From Rhodospirillales bacterium (GTDB taxonomy: Bacteria; Pseudomonadota; Alphaproteobacteria; Reyranellales; Reyranellaceae): DNA of 64,000 bases. The position numbers and the translations under genes are program-made. The DNA is taken from contig WHTW01000011.1 of NCBI GenBank assembly GCA_009377525.1, positions 27,158 to 91,157 of the forward strand, written 5' to 3'. Below are positions 22,263 through 59,566 of the stretch, piece after piece. Below the pieces are notes generated by a model. The model made no database searches, was not told the DNA's origin, and saw nothing but the letters and a program-made list of their open reading frames with translations. The number at the start of each line of letters is the position of its first letter. The stretch's first letter is position 1.

Positions 22263-22272
22263 GGCGTCCCTC

Positions 22273-23142: not shown

Positions 23143-23159
23143 AGGTCAGTCCTCGCATT

Positions 23160-23221
23160 GGAGCGCGGACCCCCAAGGTCCGCATTCATGATTCGTGAGC
23201 GGACCTGGAGGTCCGCGCTCC
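23160..23221. repeat. palindromic repeat R3, inside the liv operon
   Basis: Outer arms GGAGCGCGGACC and GGTCCGCGCTCC pair exactly. The inner right hairpin is GCGGACCTGGAGGTCCGC, and the left is GCGGACCCCCAAGGTCCGC, slightly altered. The loop contains TTCATGATTCGTGA. It sits between livK and livH, the only family copy found inside an operon here. Confidence 0.8.
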
Positions 23222-23240
23222 GCTTGAAGTGGCGTCCGCA

Positions 23241-24437
23241 CTACGAGCTGTAGCCGGGAGCGATGTTGAAGGCGCCATCCTTCAGCGAGTTGACCTCGCA
23301 CATGACGACGTCTTCGTCGGGGAACCCGTTGTGCTCCTCTGGCGTCCAGGTCACGGTGCCGTAGATGCCCGGCCAGCCCTTCACCTTGTTGTTCCAGTAG
23401 GCGACCATGTCCGTGTTCTTCGGACCGGCGGCTTTCAGAGTCTCGGCCATCATCATGGCGCCGTCCCAGCCCAGTGCCACCCACCACAGCAGCGTGTCGG
23501 CGAACTCGATCTTGTCCTTCTTCAGGCGCTCGACGTACTCCGCCGCGCGCGGCGGCAGCTTGCCGTTGACGTAGCAGCAGTTGCGGAAGTTGTTGGAATA
23601 GACCTTGTTCCAGTTCTCCGGCTTGTCGAGCAGGGCCTTGGTCTGGCCCGAGCCCAGCGTCGTCTGGCCGACCACCGGCACGTCCCAGCCCATGGCGCCG
23701 CGCGTGTTCAGGATGCGCGACAGGAATCCCGCGTTGACGCTCCACGGCATGATCGCCTGCGCGCCGGCGCTCTGCATGCGCAGAAGCTCGGGCTTGAGGT
23801 CGGGGTTCGCAGCATCGACATGGTTCGTGTAGACCACCTCGGCACCCATCGCCTTCAGCATCGGCACGTAGGTATTGGCCGAGGACGTCCCATAGCCCGT
23901 GGTGTCGCTCACCACGGCGACCTTCTTCAGCTTCAGCACGTTGAACACGTAGTGGTTGGCGCCCTTGCCGACCTGAGTGTTGGTTGGCGCCATGCGGAAG
24001 GCCATCGGGTACTTCTTGACGTCGATCAGCGAGTCGACCCAGCAGGGATGCAGCATCGGAACCTTGTCGCGCGCGATCAGCGGCGTCGCCGCCAAGGCCT
24101 CGCCCGAGTTGAGCGGCCCCCAGATGGCGGCGACCTTCTGCCGTTGAGTCAGCTCGGCCACGGCGTTCACCGCCTTGGTCGGGTCGCTCTGCGTGTCGCG
24201 GACGATCATCTCGAGCTTTCGGCCGTTGATGCCGCCTGACTTGTTGATGACATCGACCGCGAGCTCCGTGCCACGGGTGATGCCGACACCTGTCGACGAG
24301 CTGGGGCCGGTCAGCGCCGGCAGATAGCCGACGCGGATCGGATCGCTCTGGGCGATGGCCGGGGCCGCGAGGCTCGATGTTAGCGATACCACACCGGCAG
24401 CTGAGCCAGTCAGGACTGTGCGACGCTTGATCGACAT
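23241..24437 (-). CDS. livK: HAAT ABC transporter substrate-binding protein (LivK-like)
   Basis: A 398-residue periplasmic binding protein. The ATG at 24437 has GGAGGG upstream and opens a Tat-like signal peptide (SIKRRTVLTGSAAGVVSLTS). The Peripla_BP_6 fold appears in RVGYLPALTGPSSSTGVGIT, DVINKSGGINGRKLEMIVRD and AIWGPLNSGEALAATPLIAR. The ligand may be an amide or urea-like compound rather than leucine, since this branch is diverse. It is first in the livK-livH-livMG-livF operon. Confidence 0.9.
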   Translation of the reverse strand: MSIKRRTVLTGSAAGVVSLTSSLAAPAIAQSDPIRVGYLPALTGPSSSTGVGITRGTELAVDVINKSGGINGRKLEMIVRDTQSDPTKAVNAVAELTQRQKVAAIWGPLNSGEALAATPLIARDKVPMLHPCWVDSLIDVKKYPMAFRMAPTNTQVGKGANHYVFNVLKLKKVAVVSDTTGYGTSSANTYVPMLKAMGAEVVYTNHVDAANPDLKPELLRMQSAGAQAIMPWSVNAGFLSRILNTRGAMGWDVPVVGQTTLGSGQTKALLDKPENWNKVYSNNFRNCCYVNGKLPPRAAEYVERLKKDKIEFADTLLWWVALGWDGAMMMAETLKAAGPKNTDMVAYWNNKVKGWPGIYGTVTWTPEEHNGFPDEDVVMCEVNSLKDGAFNIAPGYSS

Positions 24438-24583
24438 GTCGTTCCCTCCAGACGTTTTCTTGTGAGATTGGCGCACTTTGCGGCGCCCGATTTGCCGGGA
24501 AGCCTATCGCTCCCGGCCAACCGCGGTCAATGCGGAGACGGGACGGCGTGAAACGTCAAATCGCTACGCGGGTGACGCCGCGT

Positions 24584-25114
24584 TCATCCGCGCGCGGCCA
24601 GCCGTCGCACGATCTCGTCGACGATCTCGGCCGGCGCCGCGCCGATGTCGACGGTGATCGCCCGCTCCTCCGCAGCCGGCTCTTGCAGGGCGGCGAACTG
24701 GTTGTCGAGCAGTGCCGCCGGCATGAAATGGCCCTTCCGCGCCGCCAGGCGCTGTCCGATCAGCTCGCGCGAGCCCTTGAGATGAATCAGGCCGACATCC
24801 GGCCGGTCGCCGATGATGATGTCGCGATAGGCGCGTTTCAGCGCCGAGCAGGTAATCACGCCCGATTCGTCCGACCTGCGCCACGCGTCGATCCGCCCGG
24901 CGATCTTGTGCAGCCAGGGGATACGGTCCGTGTCGGTGAGCGGCGTGCCGCTGCTCATCTTGGCGACGTTCTCGGGCGGATGCAGGGCGTCGCCCTCCTG
25001 GTAGTGCCAGCCCAGCCGTTCGGCCAGGAGCTTGCCGACCGTGCTTTTGCCGGAGCCGGAAACGCCCATGACGACCACGGACATCGGGCGGTTGTGAGCA
25101 GCATGCCGGTCCAT
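24584..25114 (-). CDS. gntK: gluconokinase
   Basis: A 176-residue P-loop kinase that phosphorylates gluconate to 6-phosphogluconate. The P-loop is VVMGVSGSGKSTVGKLLAER. The family features DALHPPENVAKMSSGTPLTD, WLHKIAGRIDAW, VITCSALKRAYRDI and HFMPAALLDNQFAALQEP are all there. The start at 25114 is chosen over 25084 because a purine-rich AGGCGAAG lies upstream; both are possible. It is divergent from fgd across only 43 bases, so they may share regulation. That makes sense because both enzymes feed 6-phosphogluconate. Confidence 0.93.
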   Translation of the reverse strand: MDRHAAHNRPMSVVVMGVSGSGKSTVGKLLAERLGWHYQEGDALHPPENVAKMSSGTPLTDTDRIPWLHKIAGRIDAWRRSDESGVITCSALKRAYRDIIIGDRPDVGLIHLKGSRELIGQRLAARKGHFMPAALLDNQFAALQEPAAEERAITVDIGAAPAEIVDEIVRRLAARG

Positions 25115-25157
25115 TAAGACTTCGCCTGACCCCGCGTCTCCATAAGGAAGCATCACC

Positions 25158-26162
25158 GTGCTCAAGCTCGGATACAAGGCGTCGGCCGAACAATTCGCGC
25201 CCGGCAAGCTGCTCGACTTCTCCGCTCATGCCGAGAAGACCGGGTTCGAATCGGTGTTCGTCAGCGACCACTTCCAGCCGTGGAAGCATATCGACGGCCA
25301 TGCGCCCAATTCGCTGGCCTGGCTGGGCGCGCTGGGCGCCCGCACCTCGAAGGTCGACATCGGCACCAGCGTGCTCACGCCCACCTTCCGATACCATCCC
25401 TCAATCGTGGCGCAGGCCTTCGGCACGCTGGGCTCGATGTTCCCGGGCCGCGTCATCCTGGGCATCGGCACCGGCGAATCGCTGAACGAGGTGCCGTCGA
25501 CCGGCCAGCCCTGGCCCGAGTTCAAGGAACGCTTCGCCCGCCTGCGCGAGGCGGTGAACCTGATCCGCACCCTGTGGCGCGGCGAGCGCGTCACCTTCGA
25601 GGGCGAGTACTACAAGACCGAGAAGGCCACGATCTACGACCGGCCGGACGTCGAGGTGCCGATCTACGTCGCGGCCGCCGGCGCGCTGGTGGCGAAGTAT
25701 GCCGGCCGCCAGGGCGACGGCTTCATCTGCACCAGCGGCAAGAAGCGCGAGCTCTACACCGAGACGCTGCTGCCCAAGGTCGCCGAGGGCATCGCCGCGG
25801 CGGGCGAGCGCAAGCAGCCCTACGACCACATGATCGAGGTCAAGGTGTCGTTCGACACCGACAAGGAGCGCGCGCTCCAGGACACGCGCCACTGGGCGGC
25901 GCTGGCGCTGACGCCCGAGGAGAAGATGTCGGTCGAGGACCCTGTCGAGATGCAGCGGCTGGCCGACGCCCTGCCACTCGAGCGCGCGGCCAGCCGCTGG
26001 ATCGTGTCCAACGATCCCGACGAGCAGGTCGAGAAGATCGGCTACTACGTGGGCCTGGGCTTCAACCACCTCGTCTTCCACGCGCCCGGCCCCGACCAGG
26101 CACGCTTCCTCGACCTCTATGGCAAAGAAGTCCTGCCGCGCCTGCGCAAGCGCTTCGGATGA
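25158..26162 (+). CDS. fgd: F420-dependent glucose-6-phosphate dehydrogenase
   Basis: A 334-residue LLM-superfamily TIM barrel very close to mycobacterial Fgd1. It carries [13 protein letters not shown] at the N-terminus, SDHFQPW (His38, Trp42), [23 protein letters not shown] (Glu107), [17 protein letters not shown] and [18 protein letters not shown]. His40, Trp44 and Glu109 are the Fgd1 active-site residues (from memory); all three are conserved here with a uniform 2-residue offset. It would oxidise glucose 6-phosphate and make F420H2. The start is GTG with AAGGAAG upstream. It overlaps cofE by ATGA, placing the reductant source in the cofactor biosynthesis operon. Another sugar 6-phosphate remains possible as substrate. 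Confidence 0.9.
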
Positions 26163-26929
26163 GCGTCGCCAGGCTCGAGCTGCTGGCGATCCCCGGCCTG
26201 CCGATGATCAAGGCAGGCGACGACCTGGCGGCCCTCATCGCCGAGGGATTTCTACGCGCCGGGCTGAAGCCGCAGCCAGGCGACGTCCTGGCGCTTGCCC
26301 AGAAGATCGTCTCCAAGGCCGAAGGCCGCAGCGTCGAGCTCGCCAAGGTGAAGCCCTCGGCGCGCGCCGTCTCGCTGGCCGCCGAAGTGCAGAAGGATCC
26401 GCGGCTGGTCGAACTGATCCTGTCGGAAGCGGTGCGCGTGGTGCGCTCGCGGCCCAACGTGCTGATCGTCGAGCACCGGCTTGGCTTCGTCATGGCGAAC
26501 GCCGGCATCGACCAGTCCAATGTCGGGCCGCCCGACGGCGTCGAGCGCGCCCTGCTGCTGCCGGTCGATCCCGACGGCAGTGCCAAAACGCTGCGCACGC
26601 GGCTTGGCGAGCTTTTGGGCACCGCGCCCGCCGTCGTCATCACCGACAGCTTCGGCCGCGCCTGGCGGCGCGGCACGCAGGGCATCGCCATCGGCGCCGC
26701 GGGCCTCCCCGCCCTGCTCGACCTGCGCGGCAACCCCGACCTGTTCGGCCGTACCCTGCAGGTCAGCATCTCGGGCTTCGCCGATGAGATCGCCGCCGCC
26801 GCGTCACTCGTTCAGGGCCAGGGCAACGAGGCGCAGCCTGTCATTCTGGTGCGCGGGCTCGCCTGGACGGCGCCTGCCAACCCGGCCTCCGAGCTGGTGC
26901 GCCCCGCCGCCGAGGACATGTTCCGGTGA
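26159..26929 (+). CDS. cofE: coenzyme F420-0:L-glutamate ligase (CofE)
   Basis: A 256-residue enzyme that adds glutamate to F420-0 using GTP and metal. Family segments are [59 protein letters not shown] and [20 protein letters not shown]. It corresponds to the N-terminal domain of mycobacterial FbiB; the C-terminal FMN nitroreductase-like domain that reduces the dehydro precursor is absent. ATGA overlap with fgd upstream and GTGA overlap with cofD downstream show tight coupling. Confidence 0.95.
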
Positions 26930-27855
26930 GCAAGGGCCTGGTCGTTGCCCTGTCCGGCGGTGTCGGCGGGGCCAAGCTGGCGTTGGGGCTGAGCCGCGTG
27001 CTGCCGGCCGACGAGCTTTTGATCGTCGCCAACACCGGCGACGACTTCGAGCATCTGGGGCTGAAAATATGTCCCGACATCGACACTCTCACCTATGTGC
27101 TGGCCGGCCTCGACAACATCGAGCAGGGCTGGGGTCGGCGCGACGAGACATGGTCGTTCATGGCGACCATCGCCTCGGTGGGCGGCGCCGATTGGTTCCA
27201 CCTCGGCGATCGCGATCTCGCGATGCATGTCGAGCGCACGCGCCGGCTGCGCACGGGCGAGACGCTGTCGCAGATCACGGCCGACATCACCCGCCGCCTC
27301 GGCATCGCCCATCGCATCCTGCCGATGAGCGACGACCCTGTGCCGACGCGCGTGCTGAGCGACGGCGGCTGGATCGACTTCCAGGACTACTTCGTGCGCC
27401 AGCAGTGCCGGCCGGTCGTGCGCGAGCTGGTATTCGACGGCGCCGACAAGGCGCGGCCTCAGCCGGACGTCATCAAGGCGTTGGGCGGCCAGGTGAGTGC
27501 CGTGGTGATCTGCCCGTCAAACCCCTTCATCAGCATCGAGCCGATCCTGGCCGTGCCGGGCATGCGGGCCGCCCTCGAAAGCTGCAACGCACCCGTGGTC
27601 GCAGTCTCGCCGATCGTCGGCGGCAAGGCGGTCAAAGGTCCGACGGCCAAGATGATGCAGGAACTCGGTCTTGCCGTGACCTCTGCATCGGTGGCCAAGC
27701 GCTACGGCAACCTTCTCGACGGCTACATCGTCGATCAGGGCGATGCTGAGGGCGTGCCCGGCAAGGTGCATGTCGCCCCTACCTTGATGGCAAGCGTCGC
27801 CGACAAGGAAGCCCTGGCGCGCACCGTCCTCTCTTTTGCGGATTCTCTTTCGTGA
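26926..27855 (+). CDS. cofD: 2-phospho-L-lactate transferase (CofD/FbiA)
   Basis: A 309-residue enzyme that joins the activated phospho-acid to the deazaflavin Fo, giving (dehydro-)F420-0. It has the CofD start LSGGVGGAKLALGLSRVL, ANTGDDFEHLGLKICPDIDT, RRDETWSFM, WFHLGDRDLAMHVERT and VICPSNPFISIEPILAVPGM, then VVAVSPIVGGKAVKGPTAKM. All are standard. The start is GTG at 26926, overlapping the cofE stop (GTGA). Length matches the family. Confidence 0.96.
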   Translation: MSKGLVVALSGGVGGAKLALGLSRVLPADELLIVANTGDDFEHLGLKICPDIDTLTYVLAGLDNIEQGWGRRDETWSFMATIASVGGADWFHLGDRDLAMHVERTRRLRTGETLSQITADITRRLGIAHRILPMSDDPVPTRVLSDGGWIDFQDYFVRQQCRPVVRELVFDGADKARPQPDVIKALGGQVSAVVICPSNPFISIEPILAVPGMRAALESCNAPVVAVSPIVGGKAVKGPTAKMMQELGLAVTSASVAKRYGNLLDGYIVDQGDAEGVPGKVHVAPTLMASVADKEALARTVLSFADSLS

Positions 27856-28544
27856 CTGCCAACGACATCTGGGCCGTCGTGCCCATCAAGGAACTGGACG
27901 GCGCCAAGCAGCGGCTCGCGCCCCTGCTCACGCCGGCGCAGCGCCGCGCGCTGATCGAGGTGATGATGAGCGAGGTGCTGGAGGCCGTGGTCACGACGCC
28001 GAGCCTCGCCGGCACCATGGTCGCCACCGTCGATCCCCATGCGACGGCGCTGGCGAAGCGGCTGGGCGCACGGGTGGTGACCGACGGCGCGCGCGACGGT
28101 CACACCGGCAGCGTCACGGCGGGCCTAAAGCTGCTGGCGCGCGAAGGACGCGGGGCCGTGCTCACCCTGCCAGCCGACATTCCCGCCGTGACCTCGCAGG
28201 AGATCAGCCTGGTCGTGGGCGCGCACCTGCCGGGGCCGTCCTTCACCATCTCGCCGGCGCACGACCATCAGGGCTCCAACACCGTGATCTGCTCGCCGCC
28301 TGATGCCGTGCCGCTGCGCTTCGGCGACAACAGCTACTACCCGCACCTCGATGCGGCGCGGCGCTGCAACATCGAACCCACGGTGATCCATCAGCCGGGC
28401 ATCGCCATGGACATCGACCATCCGGCCGACCTCGCGGCTTTCCTCGCCCTGCCGCAGTCGATCGGCACGCGCACCAGAGCGCTCCTGGAGGAGATGGGTG
28501 TGCCGAAACTCTTGGAGCGCGGACCTCCAGGTCCGCAATCATGA
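27852..28544 (+). CDS. cofC: 2-phospho-L-lactate / phosphoenolpyruvate guanylyltransferase (CofC/FbiD)
   Basis: A 230-residue nucleotidyltransferase that activates a three-carbon phospho-acid with GTP. The N-terminus VVPIKELDGAKQRLAPLLTP, the metal-binding LPADIPAVTSQEI and GSNTVICSPPDAVPLRFG are CofC hallmarks. Whether it uses phosphoenolpyruvate, 2-phospholactate or 3-phosphoglycerate cannot be read. The GTG start at 27852 overlaps the cofD stop (GTGA). The last ten residues (LERGPPGPQS) and the TGA stop are encoded by palindromic repeat R4, so the native C-terminus was probably replaced or extended by the repeat. Confidence 0.94.
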   Translation: MTANDIWAVVPIKELDGAKQRLAPLLTPAQRRALIEVMMSEVLEAVVTTPSLAGTMVATVDPHATALAKRLGARVVTDGARDGHTGSVTAGLKLLAREGRGAVLTLPADIPAVTSQEISLVVGAHLPGPSFTISPAHDHQGSNTVICSPPDAVPLRFGDNSYYPHLDAARRCNIEPTVIHQPGIAMDIDHPADLAAFLALPQSIGTRTRALLEEMGVPKLLERGPPGPQS

Positions 28545-28574
28545 GCGATGAGCGGACCTGGAGGTCCGCGCTCC
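28514..28574. repeat. palindromic repeat R4 between cofC and fbiC
   Basis: Outer arms GGAGCGCGGACC and GGTCCGCGCTCC pair exactly. The inner hairpins are GCGGACCTCCAGGTCCGC and GCGGACCTGGAGGTCCGC, and the loop contains ATCATGAGCGATGA. It closes the gap between convergent cofC and fbiC and contains the cofC stop codon. Its core sequence is the same subtype as R3, 5 kb away. Confidence 0.85.
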
Positions 28575-28589
28575 GATGAGAAGACCAAC

Positions 28590-30914
28590 CTAAGCCGCCA
28601 CCCGCTTGCGCGGCGGGGTGAGCACAATCGGCGCCAGGTCGGCCGCCACGAACGAGGCGGCGCGGCGCTCCTCGTCGACCGGACCGTAGAGCGTGGTGCG
28701 CTGCTGCGGCGCGCGGCCGATGGAGCGGATCAGGGCCTCCATCGCGTCGGGCGGGAATTCCTGGCCGTGCTGGGTGCCGGCGGCGCGCGAGATGCTCTCG
28801 TTCATCAGCGTGCCGCCGAGATCGTTGGCGCCGGCGTTGAGGCAGATCGCGGCGCCCGCCGGACCCATCTTCACCCACGAGGTCTGGATGTTGGTGATGG
28901 CCGGGTGCAGCACCAGGCGGGCGATCGAATGCATGATCACCGCCTCGCGGAAGGTCGGACCGCGGCGCGCCAGGCCATGGCGGTACATCGGCGCTTCCAT
29001 GTGCACGAAGGGCAACGGCACGAACTCGGTGAAGCCGCCCGTCTCGACCTGCAGGTCGCGCAGGGCCAAGAGATGGCGCGCCCAGGCGAGCGAGGTCTCG
29101 ACATGGCCGTACATGATGGTCGAGGTCGTGCGCAGCCCGAGCTTGTGGGCGGCGCGCTGCACGTCGAGCCATTGCGCGGTGTTGATCTTGTCCGGGCAGA
29201 TGATGGCGCGCACCTCGTCGTCGAGGATTTCTGCGGCGGTGCCGGGCAAGGTGCCCAGCCCCGCCTCCTTGAGGCCGGCGAGGAACGTGTCGATGGGCCG
29301 GTCAAGGGTCGCGGCGCCCTGCGTCACCTCGAGCGGCGAGAAGGCATGGATGTGCATGCCCGGCACCGCTTCCTTGATGGTGCGGCAGATCGCTTCGTAG
29401 GTCTCGCCGGTGTAGTCGGGATGGATGCCGCCCTGCAGGCAGACCTCGGTAGCGCCGCGCTCCCACGCCTCGACCGCGCGCCGCGACACCTCCTCAAGTG
29501 CCAGGTCATAGGGCTTGCCGCGCAGATCGTCGTGCGTGCGGCCCTTGGAGAAGGCGCAGAAGCGGCAGCGGAAGTAGCAGATGTTGGTGTAGTTGATGTT
29601 GCGGTTGACGACGTAGCGGATGACGTCGCCGCTCACCGCCTGGCGCAGCGCGTCGGCGGCACCGGTGACATGGCGATAGTCGGCATCGCGCGCCGTGAAT
29701 AGCCGCACGATCTCGGGATGGTCGAGCCGCTTGCCGCCGGTCGCGCGATCGACGATGCGCACGATCTCCGGATCGACCTCGCGCAGCAGGACCTGCGGCG
29801 CCGGCGGCGGCTCGGTGTTGCCGGGCGCCCAGTCATCCTCGCGCGCCAGGCCCTCGGCGTCGCTCATGCGGCGCACCTGCGTGGCCACCTCGGGTGCCAG
29901 CCAGGTCTGCGGCGCGCGGACGTAGGCCGGATAGACGGCGAGGCGATTGACTAAAACCTTGCCCATCTCGGCGCTCTTGCGCGCCAGCTCGTCGACGGCG
30001 GGCCACGGCGCTTCTGGGTTCACATGATCGGGCGTCACCGGCGAGACGCCGCCCCAGTCGTTGAGGCCCGCGCCGACCAGCCTTTGATAGACGCCGGGTG
30101 AAAGATTCGGCGGCGCCTGGATGTTCATCTCCGCGCCCAGGATCAGTCGCGCCTGGGCGATGGTCCAACAGAGCTCATCGAGATCGGGCTCGTCGGCGTC
30201 GGCGAGCTTGGTGTCGGACTTGGCGCGGAAGTTCTGGACGATCACTTCCTGGATGTGGCCGTACTTGCTGTGCAGGTCACCGATGGCGCGCAACGCGTCG
30301 AGCCGCTCTTCGCGCGTTTCGCCAATGCCGATCAAGATGCCGGTGGTGAACGGCACTCTAAGCTCGCCGGCGAGCCGGATGGTCTCGAGCCGCACGGCCG
30401 GATGCTTGTCGGGCGAGCCGAAATGCACGCCACCCTTCTCGCACAAACGCTCGCTGGTCGATTCCAGCATGATGCCCTGGCTCGCGGTGACCTCGCGAAG
30501 GGCCGCGATCTCCTCGCGCGTCATGACGCCGGGGTTGGCGTGCGGCAGCAGGCCCGTCTCGCGCAGCACCAGGGCGCACATCGCGGCGAGGTAGGCGATC
30601 GTCGATTCGTATCCGAGCTCAACCAGCGCCTCGCGCGCCGCGCGATAGCGCAGCTCGGGCTTGTCGCCCAGGGTGAACAGCGCCTCGGTGCAGCCGGCAG
30701 TCTTGCCGGCGCGGGCGATCGCCAAGACCTCGTCAGGCGAGAGATAGGCCGGGCGGCTGGCGTGCGGCGTCTCGGCGAAGGTGCAGTAGTGGCAGACGTC
30801 GCGGCAGAGCTTGGTCAACGGAATGAAGACCTTGCGCGAGTAGGAGATCAGCCGGCCATGGCCGCCGTCGCGCAGCCGCGCGGCGTCCGCCATCAGCTCG
30901 GAAAGTTCGGACAT
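28590..30914 (-). CDS. fbiC: Fo synthase, fused CofG-CofH (FbiC)
   Basis: A 774-residue two-domain radical SAM enzyme that makes the deazaflavin Fo from tyrosine and the ribityl-uracil intermediate of flavin synthesis. The CofG half has the cluster motif Cys37-Cys41-Cys44 in LCRDVCHYCTF. The CofH half has Cys446-Cys450-Cys453 in NICYFRCRFCAFSKGR, both CxxxCxxC. Other family stretches include GLNDWGGVSPVTPDHVNPEA and CLQGGIHPDYTGETY. The ATG at 30914 with AGAGGG upstream is preferred to the frame opening at 30995. It converges on the fgd-cofEDC operon and is divergent from an LLM gene. The fused form is typical of Actinobacteria and Proteobacteria. Confidence 0.96.
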   Translation of the reverse strand: MSELSELMADAARLRDGGHGRLISYSRKVFIPLTKLCRDVCHYCTFAETPHASRPAYLSPDEVLAIARAGKTAGCTEALFTLGDKPELRYRAAREALVELGYESTIAYLAAMCALVLRETGLLPHANPGVMTREEIAALREVTASQGIMLESTSERLCEKGGVHFGSPDKHPAVRLETIRLAGELRVPFTTGILIGIGETREERLDALRAIGDLHSKYGHIQEVIVQNFRAKSDTKLADADEPDLDELCWTIAQARLILGAEMNIQAPPNLSPGVYQRLVGAGLNDWGGVSPVTPDHVNPEAPWPAVDELARKSAEMGKVLVNRLAVYPAYVRAPQTWLAPEVATQVRRMSDAEGLAREDDWAPGNTEPPPAPQVLLREVDPEIVRIVDRATGGKRLDHPEIVRLFTARDADYRHVTGAADALRQAVSGDVIRYVVNRNINYTNICYFRCRFCAFSKGRTHDDLRGKPYDLALEEVSRRAVEAWERGATEVCLQGGIHPDYTGETYEAICRTIKEAVPGMHIHAFSPLEVTQGAATLDRPIDTFLAGLKEAGLGTLPGTAAEILDDEVRAIICPDKINTAQWLDVQRAAHKLGLRTTSTIMYGHVETSLAWARHLLALRDLQVETGGFTEFVPLPFVHMEAPMYRHGLARRGPTFREAVIMHSIARLVLHPAITNIQTSWVKMGPAGAAICLNAGANDLGGTLMNESISRAAGTQHGQEFPPDAMEALIRSIGRAPQQRTTLYGPVDEERRAASFVAADLAPIVLTPPRKRVAA

Positions 30915-31021
30915 GGCCAACCCTCTAATTTTACGCCAGTGGGCGGGACGATAGCGGCAATCCGGATCGCCCGCATCGTGTAGTATGGCACGCAAGACGG
31001 GCAGCCAAAGGGAGATCAGCT

Positions 31022-31975
31022 ATGCAGTTCGGCTTCAACGCGCCGACCGCCGGGCCAATGTCGGCGACCGACCAACTGGTAAAGCTCGTGGTCGAGGGCG
31101 AGGCCATGGGCTTCGACTACGCCACCTTCAGCGACCATGTCGTGATCCCGACCGACATCGAGGCCAAATACCCCTACAGCAACACCGGTGAATTCCCCGC
31201 GGGCTCCCGCGTCGAACGACACGAGCAGCTGATCGAGATGGCGTTCGTGGCGGCGAAGACCAGGAAGTTGCGCCTGGTCTCGTCGGTGATGGTGGTGCCG
31301 CATCGCCCCGCGGTACTGACCGCCAAGATGCTGTCGACCATGGACGTGCTGTCGGGTGGTCGCCTGGTGCTGGGCATCGGCGCGGGCTGGATGAAGGAGG
31401 AGTTCGAGGCGATCCAGGCGCCCGATTTTGCGGAGCGCGGCAAGGTCACCGACGAGTACATCAAGGCTTTCATCGAGCTCTGGACCAAGCCCAGACCTAA
31501 GTTCGCGGGCAAGCACGTGCGCTTCGACAACATCCTGATGGACCCCAAGCCGGTGCAGAAGCCGCATCCGCCGATCTGGGTCGGCGGCGAGAGCGGGCCG
31601 GCCCTGCGCCGCACCGCTCAGCTGGGCGATGCCTGGTATCCGATCGGCACCAACCCGGCCAATCCGCTCGACAGCCTGAAGCGCTTCAAGACGCAGGTCG
31701 CGCGCCTGCGCAAGATGACCGAGGAGGCCGGCCGCAAGGCCGACGCCGTCGGTGTCACCTTGCGTGTCACCCAATTCGGCGAGAGCGCGCCGGCCACGGC
31801 CGGCGACGGCGAGTGCCGGCTGTTCTCGGGCAAGCCCGCCGAGCTCGCGGGCGACATCAAGGCACTCAAGGAGATAGGCGTCGGCTGCCTCGACTTCGGC
31901 TTCGGCGGCAGCACCGTCGATGCGATGCTGGCCGAGATGCAGAAGTTCAAGCGGGGCGTGCTGGCATTGGTCTAG
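31022..31975 (+). CDS. LLM class F420-dependent oxidoreductase (TIGR03619-like)
   Basis: A 317-residue TIM-barrel protein of the luciferase-like/F420 superfamily. Landmarks are FDYATFSDHVVIPTDI, LVSSVMVVPHRPAVLTAKML, DVLSGGRLVLGIGAGWMKEE and PKPVQKPHPPIWVGGES. The SGGR...GIGxGW and PKPVQKPHPPI motifs are characteristic of the actinobacterial F420 family TIGR03619. The substrate is unknown. GGGAGA lies just before the ATG. It is divergent from fbiC across 107 bases, so it may be co-expressed with F420 synthesis. FMN use cannot be excluded from sequence. Confidence 0.88.
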   Translation: MQFGFNAPTAGPMSATDQLVKLVVEGEAMGFDYATFSDHVVIPTDIEAKYPYSNTGEFPAGSRVERHEQLIEMAFVAAKTRKLRLVSSVMVVPHRPAVLTAKMLSTMDVLSGGRLVLGIGAGWMKEEFEAIQAPDFAERGKVTDEYIKAFIELWTKPRPKFAGKHVRFDNILMDPKPVQKPHPPIWVGGESGPALRRTAQLGDAWYPIGTNPANPLDSLKRFKTQVARLRKMTEEAGRKADAVGVTLRVTQFGESAPATAGDGECRLFSGKPAELAGDIKALKEIGVGCLDFGFGGSTVDAMLAEMQKFKRGVLALV

Positions 31976-31991
31976 GCTGGGGGTGTCATCG

Positions 31992-32060
31992 TCTTCCGGA
32001 CCGCCGGCTTCCAGCCGGCATCATGATCATGAGCCGGCAAGATGCCGGCGGTCCGGAAGA
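31992..32060. repeat. palindromic repeat R5
   Basis: Outer arms TCTTCCGGACCGC and GCGGTCCGGAAGA pair exactly. The inner hairpins are GCCGGCTTCCAGCCGGC and GCCGGCAAGATGCCGGC, and the loop is the self-complementary TCATGATCATGA. It lies between two convergent LLM genes. The minus-strand LLM gene reads 10 codons into it and uses its TGA as stop. Confidence 0.85.
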
Positions 32061-32917
32061 GTAAACTGAGCCACCTTCGCCGCGAGCTTCGCCCAGCGGT
32101 CGAGCTGGGGCAGGATCACGTCGGACTTGGCCGAGTCGAGGCTGACGATGACGCGCACGACGCCCGCGTCCTGGTCGCGCTTCAGCTCACTCTCGTCCTC
32201 CTTCGATTCCCAGATCGAGATCGGCAGCGAAGCGAGGTCGCGGTTGGCCTCCTTGGCCATCGCCTGGAACTTCGGGATCAGGTCGCGCACCTCGCCGTAG
32301 GCCTTGCGCCGCCGCAACGGCATCCAGCCGTCGCCGTAGCGCACGGCGCGGCGCGCGCCGTAGGGGAAGGCACCGCCGACCAGCACCGGCGGATGCGGCT
32401 TCTGCACCGGCTTGGGCCAGGCCATCATGGGATCGAACGTCACCATCTCGCCGTGATACTCGGCCTTGGACTTGGTCCAGATCACCTTCATGGCCTCGAT
32501 GCGCTCGCGCACCAGCTTGTGGCGGCTCTCGAAGTTGGTGCCGTGGTTCTCCATCTCGTCCTGGTTCCAGCCGTTGCCGACGCCGAACAGGAAGCGCCCG
32601 CCGGAAAGCTGGTCGATCGAGGCCACCGCCTTGGCGGTCTGGATGGGATCGCGCTGATTGACCAGGCAGACGCCGGTGCCGACCTTCAGCTTCTTGGTGA
32701 CCGCGGCGGCCGCCGTGAGCGTCACGAAGGGATCCATGGCGTCGTAGTACTTCTTGGGCAGTTCGCCGCCGCCTGGCCACTCGGATTTGCGCGTCAGCGG
32801 GATGTGCGAGTGCTCGGGCGCCCACACCGATTCGAAGCCGCGTTCCTCCAGGGCCGTCGCGAGCTCCGCCGGCGTCATGGAATAGTCGGTAAAGAACATC
32901 GCCGCGCCGATATGCAT
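32027..32917 (-). CDS. LLM class F420-dependent oxidoreductase (TIGR03619-like), C-terminus in repeat R5
   Basis: A 296-residue protein; the ATG at 32917 has GGAGGAG upstream. Motifs are ESVWAPEHSHIPLTRKSEWP, PGGGELPKKYYDAMDPFVTL, QLSGGRFLFGVGNGWNQDE and PKPVQKPHPPVLVGGAFPYG. It is a clear paralogue of the protein at 33870-34721 (both HxHIPxxRKSxxPGGGELPK). The final residues LPDRRHLAGS come from palindromic repeat R5. It is the last gene of the operon gnd-LLM-LLM-LLM, 11 bases after the preceding gene. Confidence 0.87.
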   Translation of the reverse strand: MHIGAAMFFTDYSMTPAELATALEERGFESVWAPEHSHIPLTRKSEWPGGGELPKKYYDAMDPFVTLTAAAAVTKKLKVGTGVCLVNQRDPIQTAKAVASIDQLSGGRFLFGVGNGWNQDEMENHGTNFESRHKLVRERIEAMKVIWTKSKAEYHGEMVTFDPMMAWPKPVQKPHPPVLVGGAFPYGARRAVRYGDGWMPLRRRKAYGEVRDLIPKFQAMAKEANRDLASLPISIWESKEDESELKRDQDAGVVRVIVSLDSAKSDVILPQLDRWAKLAAKVAQFTLPDRRHLAGS

Positions 32918-32928
32918 GGTTTCTCCTC

Positions 32929-33873
32929 CTACGCTGCTTTCGCCTTCTTGGGCCACCGCGCGTCGACCTGCGGCAGCACCTTTTCGATGAGCTTCCTGGT
33001 CTGGGCGACGATCTCCTCGCCGTTCTGCCCCACGGGGCGCAGGATGAACTTCTCGACGCCGACGGCGACATACTCGGCGACCCGGTCGAGGATCACCTTC
33101 TCGTCACCGATCGCGAAGTAGCCCGACGGATCGCGGCCCGTCCTCTTCTGGTAGGCGGCCATGGCGGCCGACAGGACGCCGTCGCCCGGACTGCCGAAGT
33201 AGAACGGGAAGGCCGCTCCGTAGTGATCCTCGTCGATCGTGCGGCCCGCTTCGGCGGCTGCCTTCTTGATCGCGGCGACGACCTTGCCGACCGCGTCCGG
33301 CTGCTCGGCGCCGGACTGCCAGCCGGTGCCGTAGCGCGCGGTGCGCCGGATCGCCGCCTCCGACGAGCCGCCGATCCACATCGGCAGGTCGGGCTGCACC
33401 GGCTTGGGCGAGATCGAGGCCGCCTTCAGGCGCCAGTGTTTGCCTTCGAAGTCGACGCTGTCCTCGCGCCACAGTCGCGCGATGATCTCCAGCGCCTCAT
33501 CGGTGCGCCGGCCGCGCGTCCTGGTGTCGATGTTGAGCGCGTCCCATTCGGGCCCCAACGGGCTGCCGATGCCAAAGGCCGGCAGCAGCCGGCCTTCGGA
33601 CAGCACGTCGATGGTGGCGCACTGCTTGGCCAGCAGCACCGGATCGCGCAGCGCGAGCGACACGACGTTCATGCCGAAGCGCAGGCGGCGCGTGCGGCCG
33701 GCCAGCGCCGCCATCACCGCCATGCATTCCAGGATCGGCTGGCGGCTCACCAGCCGGTCGGTCTGCCACAGCGAATCGACACCGCCCGCTTCGCAGAGAT
33801 CGACCCAGCGCCAATAGTCGCTCGCCCCGGCGAAGGGGAACTCCATCAGGCCGAGGCCGATGGCGACGCTCAT
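32929..33873 (-). CDS. LLM class flavin/F420-dependent oxidoreductase
   Basis: A 314-residue superfamily member starting at ATG 33873, overlapping the previous gene by ATGA. It carries GLMEFPFAGASDYWRWVDLC, DSLWQTDRLVSRQPILECMA, DVLSEGRLLPAFGIGSPLGP and PKPVQPDLPMWIGGSSEAAI. It is less like TIGR03619 than its two neighbours, with no HxHIP motif. The C-terminus is Lys/Ala rich (WPKKAKAA). Its place between two paralogues suggests a pathway with successive LLM steps or a two-protein system. Confidence 0.85.
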   Translation of the reverse strand: MSVAIGLGLMEFPFAGASDYWRWVDLCEAGGVDSLWQTDRLVSRQPILECMAVMAALAGRTRRLRFGMNVVSLALRDPVLLAKQCATIDVLSEGRLLPAFGIGSPLGPEWDALNIDTRTRGRRTDEALEIIARLWREDSVDFEGKHWRLKAASISPKPVQPDLPMWIGGSSEAAIRRTARYGTGWQSGAEQPDAVGKVVAAIKKAAAEAGRTIDEDHYGAAFPFYFGSPGDGVLSAAMAAYQKRTGRDPSGYFAIGDEKVILDRVAEYVAVGVEKFILRPVGQNGEEIVAQTRKLIEKVLPQVDARWPKKAKAA

Positions 33874-34721
33874 GCCGCGAGCGCCACCTTGGCGAGCGGC
33901 GCGACCGTGTCGAGATAGCTCAGGATCTCGTCGCGGCTCTTGTCGGGAATGGCGAGCAGCGCGCTCTGGATGCCGGCCTTCTCGTAGCCCTCCAGCGCCT
34001 TGGCATCGTTGGGTGCGCCGAAAACGGTGATGCTGAGCGTCTTGGGATCGCGCTTCTTGGACTCGGCCATGCGGCGGAGTCGATCGACCGACGCTGCGGC
34101 ATCGAAGCCGGCGCGCGTGCGCGGCAGCCAGCCGTCGCAATACTCGACGATGCGGCGCAGCGTGTGATCGCTCTCGCCGCCCAGGATGATCGGCGGATTG
34201 GGCCGCTGAGCGGGCTTGGGCCACGACCAGACGCGATCGAACTTCACGAACTCGCCGTCGAACGAGGCCTCGTCCTTGGTCCACAGCTCCTTCATCGCCA
34301 GCACATGCTCGCGCATCTGCTTGAAGCGCGTCTCGTAGCGCGCGCCGTGGTTCTCCATCTCCTCGACGTTCCAGCCGCCGCCGATGCCGAAGACGAAGCG
34401 GCCGCCGGAAAGCTGGTCGAGCGAGGCGATGGCCTTGGCCGTCACGATCGGCTCGTGCTGCGGCACCAGCAGGATGCCGGTGCCGATGGTGAGGTTCTTG
34501 GTCGCCGCCGCGGCGAAGGCGAGCACCACGAACGGATCGTGGGTGTGCGAATAGCGCTTGGGCAGTTCGCCTCCGCCCGGGAAGGGCGACTTGCGGCTGG
34601 CCGGGATGTGGGTGTGCTCGGGCACATAAAGCGAATCGAAGCCGCGGTCTTCCAGCGCGCGCGCCAGTTCCGCGATATCGATGCCGTAGTCGGTCGGGAA
34701 ATAGAAAGCACCAACGCGCAT
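33870..34721 (-). CDS. LLM class F420-dependent oxidoreductase (TIGR03619-like)
   Basis: A 283-residue protein with DSLYVPEHTHIPASRKSPFP, PGGGELPKRYSHTHDPFVVL, QLSGGRFVFGIGGGWNVEE and PKPAQRPNPPIILGGESDHT. It is the closest paralogue of the protein at 32027 in this window. It begins 20 bases after gnd ends and overlaps the next LLM gene by 4 bases, so all four genes should share a transcript. Substrate unknown. Confidence 0.87.
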   Translation of the reverse strand: MRVGAFYFPTDYGIDIAELARALEDRGFDSLYVPEHTHIPASRKSPFPGGGELPKRYSHTHDPFVVLAFAAAATKNLTIGTGILLVPQHEPIVTAKAIASLDQLSGGRFVFGIGGGWNVEEMENHGARYETRFKQMREHVLAMKELWTKDEASFDGEFVKFDRVWSWPKPAQRPNPPIILGGESDHTLRRIVEYCDGWLPRTRAGFDAAASVDRLRRMAESKKRDPKTLSITVFGAPNDAKALEGYEKAGIQSALLAIPDKSRDEILSYLDTVAPLAKVALAA

Positions 34722-34741
34722 CGTCCGTCCTCCACTTGTGT

Positions 34742-35731
34742 CTATTTCTTCGGCGCCTCGACGTGGCCACCAAAACCCAATCGCATGGCCGACAGCACCT
34801 TCTCAGCGAAGGTGTGCTGCTGGCGCGAGCGGAACCGCACGAACAGCGAGGCCGCCAGCACGTCGGCCGGCACAGCTTCCTCGATGGCGGCCTCGATCGT
34901 CCAGCGTCCTTCGCCGCTGTCCTCGACATGGCCGGAGAAGCCTTCCAGGTGGCCGTCCTTGGCCAGCGCACTGGCGGTGAGGTCGAGCAGCCAGGACGTC
35001 ACAACGCTGCCCCGCCGCCACACTTCGGCGACGTCGGCGAGGTTCAGGTCGTAGCGCTCGTCCGCCGGCAGCTTCTCCGACGCACGATGGCGCATGATGT
35101 CGAAGCCTTCGGCGAAGGCCTGCATCATGCCGTACTCGATGCCGTTATGGATCATTTTCACGAAGTGTCCGGCGCCGACCGGACCGGCATGCAGGTAACC
35201 CTGCTCGGCGCGCGGATCGAGCTTCTTCTCCCCTTCGCGCTCCTTGGTGCGCTCGATCGTGCCCACCCCCGGCGCCAGCGCAGAGAAGATCGGATCGAGC
35301 CGCTTCACCACGTCGGCATCGCCGCCGATCATCAGGCAGTAGCCGCGCTGCAGGCCCCACACGCCGCCCGACGTGCCGACGTCGAGATATTTTATGCCCT
35401 TGGGTGCCAGCTCACGGGCGCGGCGAACGTCGTCTTTGAAGTTGGTGTTGCCGCCGTCGATGATGACGTCGCCTGACTTCATCAGACCGGCGAGCTGAGC
35501 AATCGTCTGCTCGGTGATCTTGCCGGCGGGCAGCATCACCCACACGGTGCGCGGCGCCTGCAGGGCCTCGACCAGGGCGGACACGGACCCGGCCGCGGTC
35601 GCGCCCTCCTTGGCCAGCGCCGCGCCGGGGGCGGGGTCGGCGTCGTAGACCACGCAAGCATGGCCTGCGCGCGCGAGACGCCGCACGATGTTGCCGCCCA
35701 TCCGTCCGAGGCCAATGACACCGATCTGCAT
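34742..35731 (-). CDS. gnd: 6-phosphogluconate dehydrogenase, decarboxylating (short GndA type)
   Basis: A 329-residue enzyme that converts 6-phosphogluconate to ribulose 5-phosphate. It has the Rossmann start [20 protein letters not shown], the substrate segment [20 protein letters not shown] and the catalytic stretch [20 protein letters not shown] (Lys and Asn present). The short length and sequence match the NAD-preferring YqeC/GndA class rather than the 470-residue NADP form. It heads an operon with three LLM oxidoreductases. With gluconokinase and Fgd nearby it completes an oxidative pentose phosphate branch in which F420 replaces NADP in the first step. Confidence 0.93.
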
Positions 35732-35773: not shown

Positions 35774-36910
35774 TTATTTCACCTCAACGATGTCGGCCAC
35801 GCCGACTTTCTTGTCCAGCACCGTTTGCAGGACGACGAAGCGTCCCGCGGAATTGTGGTCGTCGAAGGTTACGGTTTTGCCCATGACGTTGACGAAGGTC
35901 ATCTTCTTGATGGCGTCCTTGATCTTCTCGCCGTCGGTGCAGTTACAGTCCTTGATCGCCTGGGCGATGATGCGGATGGCGTCGTAGCCGCCCCAGGTCT
36001 GCAGGTAGGGCTCGGACTTGTACTTTGCCTTGATCTTCTCGACGAAGGCCTTGTTGGACGGCGAATCGATGGTGGCGTTGTAGGTCCAGGCGCTGATCGA
36101 CTTCTCCATGCCGCCGGCTTCGATGATCGGCGTGTTGCGTCCGCCCAGCTCGATGCGGCCGGTGTACGGGATGCGCACGCCGAGCTGCATGGCCTGGCGC
36201 AGGAAGTTGATGGAATCGCCGCCGACCTGGAAGGTGGCGATGGCGTCGGGCCGCCGCTCCTGCAGGCGCGTCAGGATGCTGGTGAAGTCCGGCGCGTTCT
36301 GCGGATGGAAGTCGGTCGACACCACGGTGACGCCCGCCTTGTCGGCCACCGCCTTGAAGGCGTCGGCGCCGCCGCGGCCGAAGTCGGTGTCCTCGCCGAC
36401 GATGGCCACGGTCTTGAACGCCTTCTTGTTGCCGAGATGGATGCCCAGCGCCTCCATCATGGCCTGGTCCGACGGGCTGATACGGAACGAGTATTCGTTG
36501 CGCCCCGGACCGGCCAGTGCGGTGATCTGCGGGTTGGAGGCGATGCCGGTCACCATCGGGATCTTGGCGTCGGCCACGATCTTCATGCTGGCGAGATGGG
36601 CCGAGCTGCAATGCGCGCCCTCGATCGCCACAACCTTGGCCTCGACCAGCTTGTTGGCGACGTTGACCGCCTCCGAGGGATTGCACTTGTTGTCGAGCAC
36701 CATCAGCTCGAGCTTGCGGCCGCCCAAAAGGCCGCCGGCGGCGTTGATCTCCTCGACCGCGAGATTGACGCCCCACATTTCCCATTCCGACGCCACCGCG
36801 GCGACGCCGGTCTGCGGCGTCGACACGCCGATCACGATCGGCTGGGCTCCCGCCGAGCCGACGCCCCAAATGCCGGCAGCCAAGGCCGCCGCTAGAAACT
36901 TCACCCTCAT
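35774..36910 (-). CDS. HAAT ABC transporter substrate-binding protein (second system)
   Basis: A 378-residue periplasmic Peripla_BP_6 protein with signal peptide ending AGAQPIVIG. Motifs include IGVSTPQTGVAAVASEWEMW, EINAAGGLLGGRKLELMVLD, IEGAHCSSAHLASMKIVADA and TVAIVGEDTDFGRGGADAFK. Two pairs of cysteines are unusual for the fold. It overlaps the IclR regulator by ATGA, and the matching livHMGF genes run divergently, so it is the binding protein for that importer. The ligand may relate to the hydantoinase genes downstream of livF. Confidence 0.9.
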   Translation of the reverse strand: MRVKFLAAALAAGIWGVGSAGAQPIVIGVSTPQTGVAAVASEWEMWGVNLAVEEINAAGGLLGGRKLELMVLDNKCNPSEAVNVANKLVEAKVVAIEGAHCSSAHLASMKIVADAKIPMVTGIASNPQITALAGPGRNEYSFRISPSDQAMMEALGIHLGNKKAFKTVAIVGEDTDFGRGGADAFKAVADKAGVTVVSTDFHPQNAPDFTSILTRLQERRPDAIATFQVGGDSINFLRQAMQLGVRIPYTGRIELGGRNTPIIEAGGMEKSISAWTYNATIDSPSNKAFVEKIKAKYKSEPYLQTWGGYDAIRIIAQAIKDCNCTDGEKIKDAIKKMTFVNVMGKTVTFDDHNSAGRFVVLQTVLDKKVGVADIVEVK

Positions 36911-37788
36911 CGCTTCCCTCCGTTACGCTCCCCGATTGCAGTCAAACGCATAGCAGGCGCCGTGCCAAGCTCTCCCGCGCCCAGCGTGCGCGACACGCGC
37001 AGCGCCGCCGCCGTCACCAGGGGCACGACGCGCTGCAATGTCATGTCGCCGTCCAGATACTTGGGAAAGGCCGTGCTCAGCGCGGCGACGACGGTGCCGC
37101 CGCGATCGGTGATCGGCGCACCGACCGACAGCACGCCCGGAATGTTCTCCTCGACCACCGTCGCATAGCCCTGCCGCCGCACCTTGGGCAGCGAGGCGAG
37201 CAGGGCCGCCGGGTCGGTGATGGTATGCGGCGTGATGGCCGCGAGCTTGCGATGGCCCACAAGCTTGCGCGCGTCAGCGTCGTCGAGCGAGGCCAGCAGC
37301 ACCTTGCCGGCGGCGGTGCTGTGCAGTGGCATCTCGCTGCCCAGGCTCACCCGGATCGCCACCGGCCCGTCGGCCTGCACCGCCAGCAGGTAGATGGCGC
37401 GCCCACCGCGCAGCACCGCGACGAAGCCGTTGAGATGATGCTCGCGCGCCAGCCGGTCGAGCTCGCGCCGGGCCGTTGCGGCATAGTCGACGCCGCGCTC
37501 GCCGCTCGCCCCCAGGATCATCGAGCGATGGCCCAGGCGATAGCGCGACGTCTCCGTGTTCTTCTCGATGTACCCACGCATCGCAAGCGAGGTCACCAGA
37601 CGCTGCACGATGGTCGGGCTGAGCTCCAGTCGCCGCGCCAGCTCGCGCACGCCGATGTCGCCGTTCTCGGCCTCTATCATCTCCAGGATGTCGAGGCCGC
37701 GCTCGAGCGACTGCGAGCCCGAACGCGCCGGGCGCGGACCGGAGATCGTGCGGCGGGCGCCAGCCCGTTGTTCCGAATATCGGTACAT
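36907..37788 (-). CDS. IclR-family transcriptional regulator
   Basis: A 293-residue regulator. The N-terminal winged helix-turn-helix is at about residues 25-80 (SLERGLDILEMIEAENGDIG, then ELARRLELSPTIVQRLVTSL). The IclR effector domain follows, with AIRVSLGSEMPLHSTAAGKV and VEENIPGVLSVGAPITDRGG. The ATG at 37788 lies at the divergent junction with livH; a longer frame upstream is a shadow. It shares a 108-base region with the livHMGF-hyuAB operon and overlaps the binding-protein gene. It therefore probably controls both in response to the imported compound. Confidence 0.92.
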   Translation of the reverse strand: MYRYSEQRAGARRTISGPRPARSGSQSLERGLDILEMIEAENGDIGVRELARRLELSPTIVQRLVTSLAMRGYIEKNTETSRYRLGHRSMILGASGERGVDYAATARRELDRLAREHHLNGFVAVLRGGRAIYLLAVQADGPVAIRVSLGSEMPLHSTAAGKVLLASLDDADARKLVGHRKLAAITPHTITDPAALLASLPKVRRQGYATVVEENIPGVLSVGAPITDRGGTVVAALSTAFPKYLDGDMTLQRVVPLVTAAALRVSRTLGAGELGTAPAMRLTAIGERNGGKR

Positions 37789-37790
37789 CG

Positions 37791-37812
37791 TTGCGATAGT
37801 TGCACGTTCGCA
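37791..37812. promoter_or_regulatory. possible operator in the iclR-livH divergent region
   Basis: TGCGA (37792-37796) and TCGCA (37808-37812) form a short inverted repeat with 11 bases between, directly before the iclR start codon. The 108-base region must hold promoters for both directions. Short interrupted palindromes are usual IclR targets, but this one is weak. Confidence 0.25.
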
Positions 37813-37896
37813 GGATTCTTGATTATCTGTCAACGCACATCGGCCCACGGTTGCATCCGCGTTGGCTGGTCCGGGATTTGCAACGCCGCGAGCATT

Positions 37897-53745: not shown

Positions 53746-53822
53746 TTCGCAGCTTACCGAGTTTCGGGTGGTGCCTCCAATCGGCCAGTGCCAAGGTGCG
53801 GCAATTCGACAGGAGATTTGCG

Positions 53823-54683
53823 ATGGCACTGGGTCGTCTCGGCGTTTGGTACGCAACCGACAAGCTGAACGGATCGCAGCTCGGCGATCTTGTGAAGACC
53901 GTCGAAGGCAACGGCTATTCGGCATTGTGGTACCCCGAATCGCGCCTCTACGAATCGATGTCGCTGGCGGGTTACCTGCTGTCCAAGTCGAGCAAGCTCA
54001 CGATCGGCAGCTCGATCGCCAACATCTATGCGCGCGATTCCTACACCGCCAAGCGCGCCCTGATTTCGCTGAACGACTGGTACGGCGGCCGCTTCATCCT
54101 GGGGCTGGGCGTCAGCCACATTCCCATGGTCGAGGGCGTGCGCGGCCATCGCTACGACAAACCCATCCCGGCCATGCGGGCTTATCTCGACGGCATCAAC
54201 AAGGATGTGCCGGCCGGCGAGGAGTTGCCCGTCATGGTCGCGGCACTGGGCCCCAAGATGCTGGCGCTCAGCGCCGAGAAATCGCGCGGCGCTGTTCCGT
54301 ATAACGTAACGCCGCGGCACACCAAGCAGGCGGCGGCAGTCCTGGGGCCGGACAGGTGGCTGGCCGTCGAGCAGAAAGTGACGATCGAGACCGATGCCAA
54401 CCGCGCCCGCACGCTCGGCCGCAAGGAGCTGGCGCGCTACATGGTGCTGCCCAACTACCGCAACAACTGGCTGCGCGAGGGTTTTACCGAGGCCGATCTC
54501 GCCAACGGCGGCAGCGATCGCTTCATCGACGCCATGTGCCTGTGGGGCGATGCCGCGACGGTCAAGAAAGGCCTGCGTGCGCACTTCGAGGCGGGCGCGA
54601 CCCATGTCTGCCTGCAGCCGGTGCACGCCGACGGCGACTTCGCCGCGCGTGATCGCATGCTGGCGGCGCTGGCGGACACCTGA
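53823..54683 (+). CDS. LLM class F420-dependent oxidoreductase (TIGR03620-like)
   Basis: A 286-residue protein with LGRLGVWYATDKLNGSQLGD, YSALWYPESRLYESMSLAGY, DWYGGRFILGLGVSHIPMVE and ELPVMVAALGPKMLALSAEK. The GVW start and WYPES, GLGVSH and AALGPKML segments resemble F420 family TIGR03620 (from memory). The ATG at 53823 has GGAG upstream. It is divergent from the threonine-synthase-like gene across 77 bases and followed by another LLM gene after 14 bases. Confidence 0.86.
   Translation: MALGRLGVWYATDKLNGSQLGDLVKTVEGNGYSALWYPESRLYESMSLAGYLLSKSSKLTIGSSIANIYARDSYTAKRALISLNDWYGGRFILGLGVSHIPMVEGVRGHRYDKPIPAMRAYLDGINKDVPAGEELPVMVAALGPKMLALSAEKSRGAVPYNVTPRHTKQAAAVLGPDRWLAVEQKVTIETDANRARTLGRKELARYMVLPNYRNNWLREGFTEADLANGGSDRFIDAMCLWGDAATVKKGLRAHFEAGATHVCLQPVHADGDFAARDRMLAALADT

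Positions 54684-58528: not shown

Positions 58529-59566
<1,038 letters not shown>

Follow-up and report, generated by a model that had tools for sequence, protein, structure and literature searches.

An intact, conserved F420 biosynthesis island headed by fgd in a Reyranella-type alphaproteobacterium

F420 is a low-potential hydride carrier that has long been associated with methanogens and Actinobacteria. Here we describe an F420 locus in a 64,000-nucleotide window, the whole stretch of DNA that was analysed, which corresponds to positions 27158-91157 of contig C22 in an alphaproteobacterial genome of 7.35 Mb and 208 contigs (G000). Genes were called with NCBIfam and Pfam family models and their bit scores compared with the curated cut-offs. 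Four genes on the forward strand form an operon: fgd (25158..26162; TIGR03554, 499 bits, cut-off 420), cofE for a single-domain F420-0:gamma-glutamyl ligase (26159..26929; TIGR01916, 268 bits, cut-off 181), cofD for the transferase of the phospho-acid to FO (26926..27855; TIGR01819, 296 bits, cut-off 257) and cofC for the phospho-acid guanylyltransferase (27852..28544; TIGR03552, 124 bits, cut-off 105). Neighbors overlap by 4 nt at each of the fgd/cofE, cofE/cofD and cofD/cofC junctions. Convergent on this operon, on the reverse strand, is fbiC, encoding a fused CofG-CofH FO synthase (28590..30995; NF006687, 1154 bits, cut-off 1018), and between the ends of cofC and fbiC lies a perfect inverted repeat, GCGGACC-tgga-GGTCCGC (28552..28569), that is terminator-like by sequence. 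FbiC also scores above cut-off for TIGR03550 and TIGR03551 and carries both radical S-adenosylmethionine motifs of an FO synthase (CxxxCxxC, residues 64 and 473). All five genes are intact. A reading made from the sequence alone had named cofE, cofD, cofC, a two-motif fbiC and a directly linked fgd, and had called the locus a functional island; the genes and the linkage are as described, and the locus does look functional.

The block continues on both sides. Divergent from fgd is gntK, a gluconokinase gene (24584..25207, reverse strand; TIGR01313, 191 bits, cut-off 114, over residues 44-199), the real start of which probably lies inside the called frame (there are in-frame ATGs at 25153, 25114 and 25084). 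The divergent partner of fbiC is the luciferase-family oxidoreductase LLM31022 (31022..31975, forward; TIGR03619, 236 bits, cut-off 167). It is followed on the reverse strand by three more members of that family, LLM32027 (32027..32956; TIGR03619, 266 bits, cut-off 167), LLM32929 (32929..33873; PF00296, 167 bits, above cut-off) and LLM33870 (33870..34721; TIGR03619, 274 bits, cut-off 167), and by gnd for 6-phosphogluconate dehydrogenase (34742..35731; TIGR00872, 399 bits, cut-off 297). LLM32929 falls under two other cut-offs (TIGR03854, 179 bits against 296; TIGR03619, 166 against 167), and its frame sits within the open reading frame (ORF) 32929-34971, with the start inferred. The sequence-only reading had left these six genes of 24584-35731 unnamed.

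We consider it likely that the complete operon and the convergent fbiC make F420 and reduce it with glucose-6-phosphate. The predicted inputs are tyrosine, a riboflavin precursor, GTP, glutamate and a phospho-acid, likely 2-phospho-L-lactate (2-PL) or phosphoenolpyruvate (PEP). FbiC would make FO, CofC would activate the phospho-acid with GTP, CofD would put the activated acid onto FO and CofE would add glutamates. Fgd would then oxidise glucose-6-phosphate and charge F420 to F420H2, which the neighboring luciferase-family oxidoreductases would spend, and the adjacent gluconokinase and 6-phosphogluconate dehydrogenase would handle 6-phosphogluconate. With PEP as the acid, reduction of dehydro-F420 would fall to an enzyme that could not be recognised as FbiB- or FbiE-like. 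The best structural relatives of Fgd are PDB entries 5lxe and 3b4y. In the Rhodococcus enzyme the phosphate of glucose-6-phosphate is bound by Lys197, Lys258 and Arg282 (PMC5352752), and on alignment the window Fgd keeps all three residues, as Lys195, Lys256 and Arg280.

The locus is a real, intact F420 island of a known type, conserved and mostly ordinary. Among its sister loci (the best 80 of at least 583 confirmed CofD loci, in stretches of 3.4 to 20.9 kb), 77 have fgd upstream of cofD in the same orientation; of the remaining three, L042 and L073 are cut off by a contig end and L077 is not. cofE is found in 79/80, cofC in 76/80 and fbiC in 40/80, in Reyranella, Bradyrhizobium, Vineibacter and many Acetobacteraceae and Roseomonadaceae, among others. 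The whole series fgd-cofE-cofD-cofC-fbiC-LLM31022-LLM32027-LLM32929-LLM33870-gnd recurs collinearly in L009 and L014, and also in L109 (genome G052) to the end of its stretch, at 75-92% identity to the window. The window CofD shares 91% identity with its Reyranella soli counterpart, and its next relatives are in other alphaproteobacterial genomes, in keeping with the alphaproteobacterial look noted earlier. The view that such a set is unusual in such a genome is not supported, given the fgd-led arrangement shared by 77 of the 80 best relatives and the reported F420 detection in Alphaproteobacteria (PMC8498797). A complete pathway is described in a Rhizobiales genome note (PMC5794936), and an fbi operon figures among the genes linked to the ability of Sinorhizobium meliloti to compete for nodules (PMC8407117); in the paper collection that we searched by full text, no paper joined Reyranella to F420. 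In the CofD tree the window clusters with other fgd-type alphaproteobacterial loci (37 rows, support 93) and apart from the three actinobacterial rows, which are the only ones in the tree and are all on long branches; all trees here are quick searches, with support from the Shimodaira-Hasegawa-like approximate likelihood ratio test (SH-aLRT) only. Transfer from Actinobacteria into this lineage is unsupported by the tree, and an ancient transfer may be compatible with it. What emerges is a compact, widely conserved alphaproteobacterial version of the system, with the cofactor genes and a glucose-6-phosphate charger in one operon.

The alphaproteobacterial loci of Ney et al. 2017, as related in PMC8498797, likewise hold F420 biosynthesis genes and Fgd in aerobic Alphaproteobacteria, but the producers in that review encode the NADPH:F420 reductase Fno besides Fgd. 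The window lineage has no Fno above cut-off: TIGR01915 has no match in the window's own genome and passes its cut-off in 0/65 congeneric genomes, compared with 3/14 control genomes. The strongest Fno-like match in the 65 genomes (G058:C1:920669-921244) reaches 78 bits against a cut-off of 150, in a single-contig genome of the hybrid type described below, and the next reaches at most 42 bits. The mycobacterial pathway (FbiA, FbiB, FbiC, FbiD and FGD1) shares with the window the fused FbiC, the Fgd equivalog family and the phosphate-binding residues; unlike it, the window has no FbiB C-terminal reductase, places fgd at the head of the operon and has a CofD outside the actinobacterial rows. Proteobacterial plasmid clusters carry the same cof genes, several in the order cofE-cofD-cofC, and no nitroreductase in the examined stretches, but npdG (Fno) is annotated within the cluster in 8 of 10 annotated records; the window lineage has fgd instead.

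Within the genus, cofD and fgd occur together in 47/65 genomes and are both missing from 18/65, and neither is ever found alone; fgd is above cut-off in 46 of the 47, with a partial match under cut-off in G051. This exact co-occurrence supports, by inference, the earlier proposal that the organism both makes and uses F420. On a BluB-CobB tree of 55/65 genomes (those from which a BluB stretch was taken; in 11 rows BluB stands without CobB) there are at least four changes of F420 state, and thus the co-occurrence counts rest on few events. Most F420-negative genomes fall in one clade, with G032 apart; G035 and G059 are F420-positive rows within the negative clade, which could reflect regain or mixed bins. 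G021 has two window-type sets on separate contigs (L098, L099, L100), the CofDs of which are nearest different sister loci, and this may be duplication, transfer or a mixed bin. We also considered Fgd as a replacement for the ordinary glucose-6-phosphate dehydrogenase Zwf, an idea rejected because the genome has two zwf genes of its own. Across the genus zwf is present in 31/47 F420-positive and 3/18 F420-negative genomes; thus zwf and the F420 pathway tend to be lost together rather than exchanged.

Part of the pathway appears to have been exchanged within the genus. A divergent F420 set is found in four genomes (G016, G003, G028 and G061), with cofD 54-55%, fbiC 60-61% and fgd 70-72% identical to the window genes; its cofC is 33-35% identical in three genomes, with no tblastn match in G061, and its cofE is 58-59% identical where seen, which excludes G028 (a 6-kb contig). 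Three hybrid genomes (G058, G011 and G024) keep the window-type versions of fgd, cofE, gnd and three luciferase-family genes, with cofD, cofC, fbiC and LLM31022 absent between cofE and LLM32027 and a divergent cofD and fbiC on the same contig as the fgd block. In the trees, hybrid fgd falls within the window-type clade of 15 rows (support 97), and hybrid CofD and FbiC group with the divergent type (support 100). The simplest account of these relationships is that cofD-cofC-fbiC is a swappable cassette that was probably replaced in part of the genus, which fits the report that CofC and CofD jointly set the side chain (PMC8764529). The apparent cassette swap, the absence of Fno at cut-off and the association of LLM31022 with F420 are what is new here. 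Reyranella, a genus that includes F420-positive, F420-negative and cassette-swapped genomes, would be a practical place to settle the question of the missing reductase.

That question has been posed in print, where the unknown dehydro-F420 reductase is called 'CofX' (PMC6450877). With PEP as the precursor, dehydro-F420 must be reduced. As the sequence-only reading had noted, no FbiB C-terminal flavin domain is present: CofE matches TIGR01916 to the last model position and then ends, with no nitroreductase domain after it. The FbiB C-terminal model TIGR03553 was above cut-off in 0/65 congeneric and 0/14 control genomes, but its cut-off is strict and it fits fused FbiB, so that a distant stand-alone FbiE could be missed. 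A nitroreductase hidden Markov model built here (117 sources) found no member in the window, the 80 sister stretches or the proteobacterial plasmid stretches; its positives were genes at the cofD loci of Thermomicrobium, Paenarthrobacter, Rhodococcus and Nocardia and six congeneric BluB-type genes, which were among its training kin. Thermomicrobium roseum, like the window, has a CofC/CofD pair without fused FbiB, but there a nitroreductase is the second gene after cofC and the window block has none. The window's own genome has six PF00881 nitroreductase genes (C138, C53, C11, C166, C186 and C145), of which C138 and C53 were profiled over the genus. The most FbiB-like, C138, is BluB (TIGR02476, 278 bits, cut-off 150); it is the best match of the six to T. 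roseum FbiE, at 33% identity, and adjoins what we take to be a cobyrinate synthase gene. C138 was rejected as the missing reductase because BluB also occurs in F420-negative genomes, and C53 because it occurs in 1/65 congeneric genomes only. bluB lies from 1.3 kb (G042, L090 5363-6010) to ~31 kb from divergent-type cofD, also in G016, G003, G011, G024 and G058; an early idea that this marks FbiE was dropped. Some other neighbors of divergent cofD were scanned (sugar-transport genes, an iron-type dehydrogenase, a short-chain dehydrogenase), and none was a convincing reductase. The question is thereby narrowed to another enzyme, a remote nitroreductase outside those profiled, or a precursor other than PEP.

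Ser162 of the Mycetohabitans CofC is called diagnostic for 3-phosphoglycerate (3-PG) tolerance (PMC8764529), and the equivalent position is Gly in the window CofC and in 72/72 relatives, which are those of the 80 loci with a match of sufficient length (the other 8 had none). The equivalents of Asp116 and Ser166 are kept in 72/72, and the metal and phosphate ligands are retained in the window protein. The acid-pocket residue, Leu92 in FbiD and Met91 in Mycetohabitans, is His in 71/72 relatives, as part of a His-Thr/Ser-Gly/Ala motif that replaces the common Leu-Asn in 120/120 homologues (the best 120 of 2062); in 10 named plasmid records the position is Leu, Ile, Tyr or other, and His in none. 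Bradyrhizobium, which we take to be of the same family as Oligotropha, has a CofC with the His motif. Apart from the Mycetohabitans enzyme, the CofCs assayed are reported to prefer 2-PL and to accept some PEP; among them are those of Oligotropha and Paracoccus, assayed with a foreign CofD (PMC8764529). We read the window CofC as an enzyme for 2-PL or PEP whose pocket is altered, a reading from alignment, which alone cannot prove a substrate. Because of the Gly at the diagnostic position, 3-PG is disfavoured as the side-chain acid. The sequence-only reading had allowed either another reductase or a different phospho-acid; the latter is disfavoured if 3-PG was meant, and the pair omits direct use of 2-PL, which would require no reductase.

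Luciferase-family genes are the presumed consumers of F420H2. PF00296 has 79 matches in the genome, at least two being halves of one gene, giving ~78 genes; 14 of them, fgd included, fall in 35 kb (fgd to 60380), a span chosen after the clustering was seen, where an even spread would give 0.37. In 31 sister loci the sequence beyond fbiC is 1.3 kb or longer, and LLM31022 adjoins fbiC in 28 of them (the other 9 of the 40 fbiC loci are too short). At a threshold of at least 60% identity, set after the data were seen, a relative is present in 44/47 F420-positive genomes (partial in G048; none in G035, G051 and G063) and 2/18 F420-negative ones (G017 and G027, both <85% complete). In the 44 good genomes the counts become 30/30 and 0/14, again from few independent events. 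LLM31022 is the sole luciferase family profiled in this way, with up to 34 candidates scored per genome; the F420-negative G015, G032 and G039 had more. In the three cassette-swapped genomes the fbiC-side copy is gone together with cofD-cofC-fbiC, and a 64-69% relative sits elsewhere; across the hybrid and divergent-type genomes such a relative (63-69% identity) occupies another place, so that the case for a strict cassette link is weaker. Seven luciferase-family genes that lie near F420 clusters of other Proteobacteria were compared with LLM31022, and six match it, at 22-36% identity. LLM31022 might itself perform the FbiB/FbiE step as a second dehydro-F420 reductase, a proposal we regard as quite unlikely; if true, the long-sought enzyme would be a luciferase-family protein beside fbiC.

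Several observations weigh against a pathway of the kind we propose. For the two Alphaproteobacteria tested in earlier work, only trace F420 is reported (PMC8498797). The pathway is dispensable, since 18/65 congeneric genomes do without it, and with two ordinary zwf genes Fgd is not the sole glucose-6-phosphate dehydrogenase. A point in favor of the pathway is that luciferase-family candidates are about twice as numerous in F420-positive genomes (n=47; median 78, range 39-139) as in F420-negative ones (n=18; median 39, range 28-54) and remain more numerous when counted per megabase, but these are loose first-look candidates, of which at most 28 per genome were scored. Such genes may use flavin mononucleotide rather than F420, and of those scanned, two were under the TIGR03619 cut-off and three had no NCBIfam match at E 1e-45. 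Among the matches listed, 11 congeners, all F420-positive, have a nitroreductase family (L111-L121) that, of those compared, comes nearest T. roseum FbiE (30% identity, E ~2e-18) and scores 47-52 bits against an FbiB cut-off of 250. It could be a stand-alone FbiE in those 11 genomes, judged by similarity; 36/47 F420-positive genomes are without it among the same matches, and the window's genome itself has none, the nearest of its six nitroreductases being 24% identical. As for the acid, PMC8764529 states that the foreign CofD of the published assays may bias them to 2-PL, the window CofC is closer to the 3-PG enzyme (7p97, 95 bits) than to the PEP enzyme of mycobacteria (57 bits), and its pocket His is unlike the four compared CofCs of known activity.

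A rival reading is a different F420, with 3-PG or another phospho-acid in the side chain and hence no need of a reductase. The higher CofC score against 7p97 than against FbiD, the conserved His motif and the lack of an FbiE-type gene linked to the operon favor it, and the Mycetohabitans 3PG-F420 pathway, whose CofC is the best match among solved structures, likewise has no known reductase. The window protein differs from that CofC at Met91 (His), Cys95 (Val), His145 (Gln) and Ser162 (Gly, as in all 72 relatives), and the Oligotropha and Paracoccus enzymes are reported to prefer 2-PL, though with the foreign CofD; we dropped 3PG-F420 as the leading reading on the Gly, and with the His motif in view retain it as an unlikely but not negligible rival. 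That the pathway simply ends at dehydro-F420, used by the cell unchanged, would account for the lack of an FbiB C-terminal domain in 65 genomes and of a nitroreductase in 80 sister stretches, but the strict cut-off, which no control genome passed, could hide a distant FbiE, and we think this very unlikely. Finally, a patchy trait (47/65 genomes), with cofD homologues on 39 plasmid records, might suggest a recently acquired or decaying island without function. Every plasmid homologue is <60% identical to the window cofD, all frames are intact, three sister loci keep the block collinear (75-92% identity) and CofD groups with fgd-type alphaproteobacterial loci rather than with the actinobacterial rows, so that we find this hardly credible.

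The rest of the window holds further luciferase-family genes. One, at 53796..54683 on the forward strand (TIGR03620, 278 bits, cut-off 220), belongs to a family seen in 25/81 sources, the window counted, with relatives upstream of fgd in several sister loci. Other PF00296 matches lie at 45148-46002, 50620-51531, 51615-52466, 54728-55690, 56792-57463, 57541-58461, 58568-59497 and 59580-60380. ARAGORN called a tRNA-Arg (tct) at 56837-56928 (reverse strand), inside a luciferase-family gene on the same strand (TIGR03619 match ~56702-57442), and the call is probably a false positive. A hydantoinase B/oxoprolinase gene lies near this cluster (43337-45073, forward). On both sides of the F420 block (20413-24476 and 35774-40516) are parts of branched-chain amino-acid type ATP-binding cassette transporters with an IclR regulator, including solute-binding proteins at 23241-24476 and 35774-36910, permeases and ATPases. 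ORF 46251-49757 (forward) encodes 1168 residues with a third-position GC of 0.91 and has a marginal DUF4114 match only.

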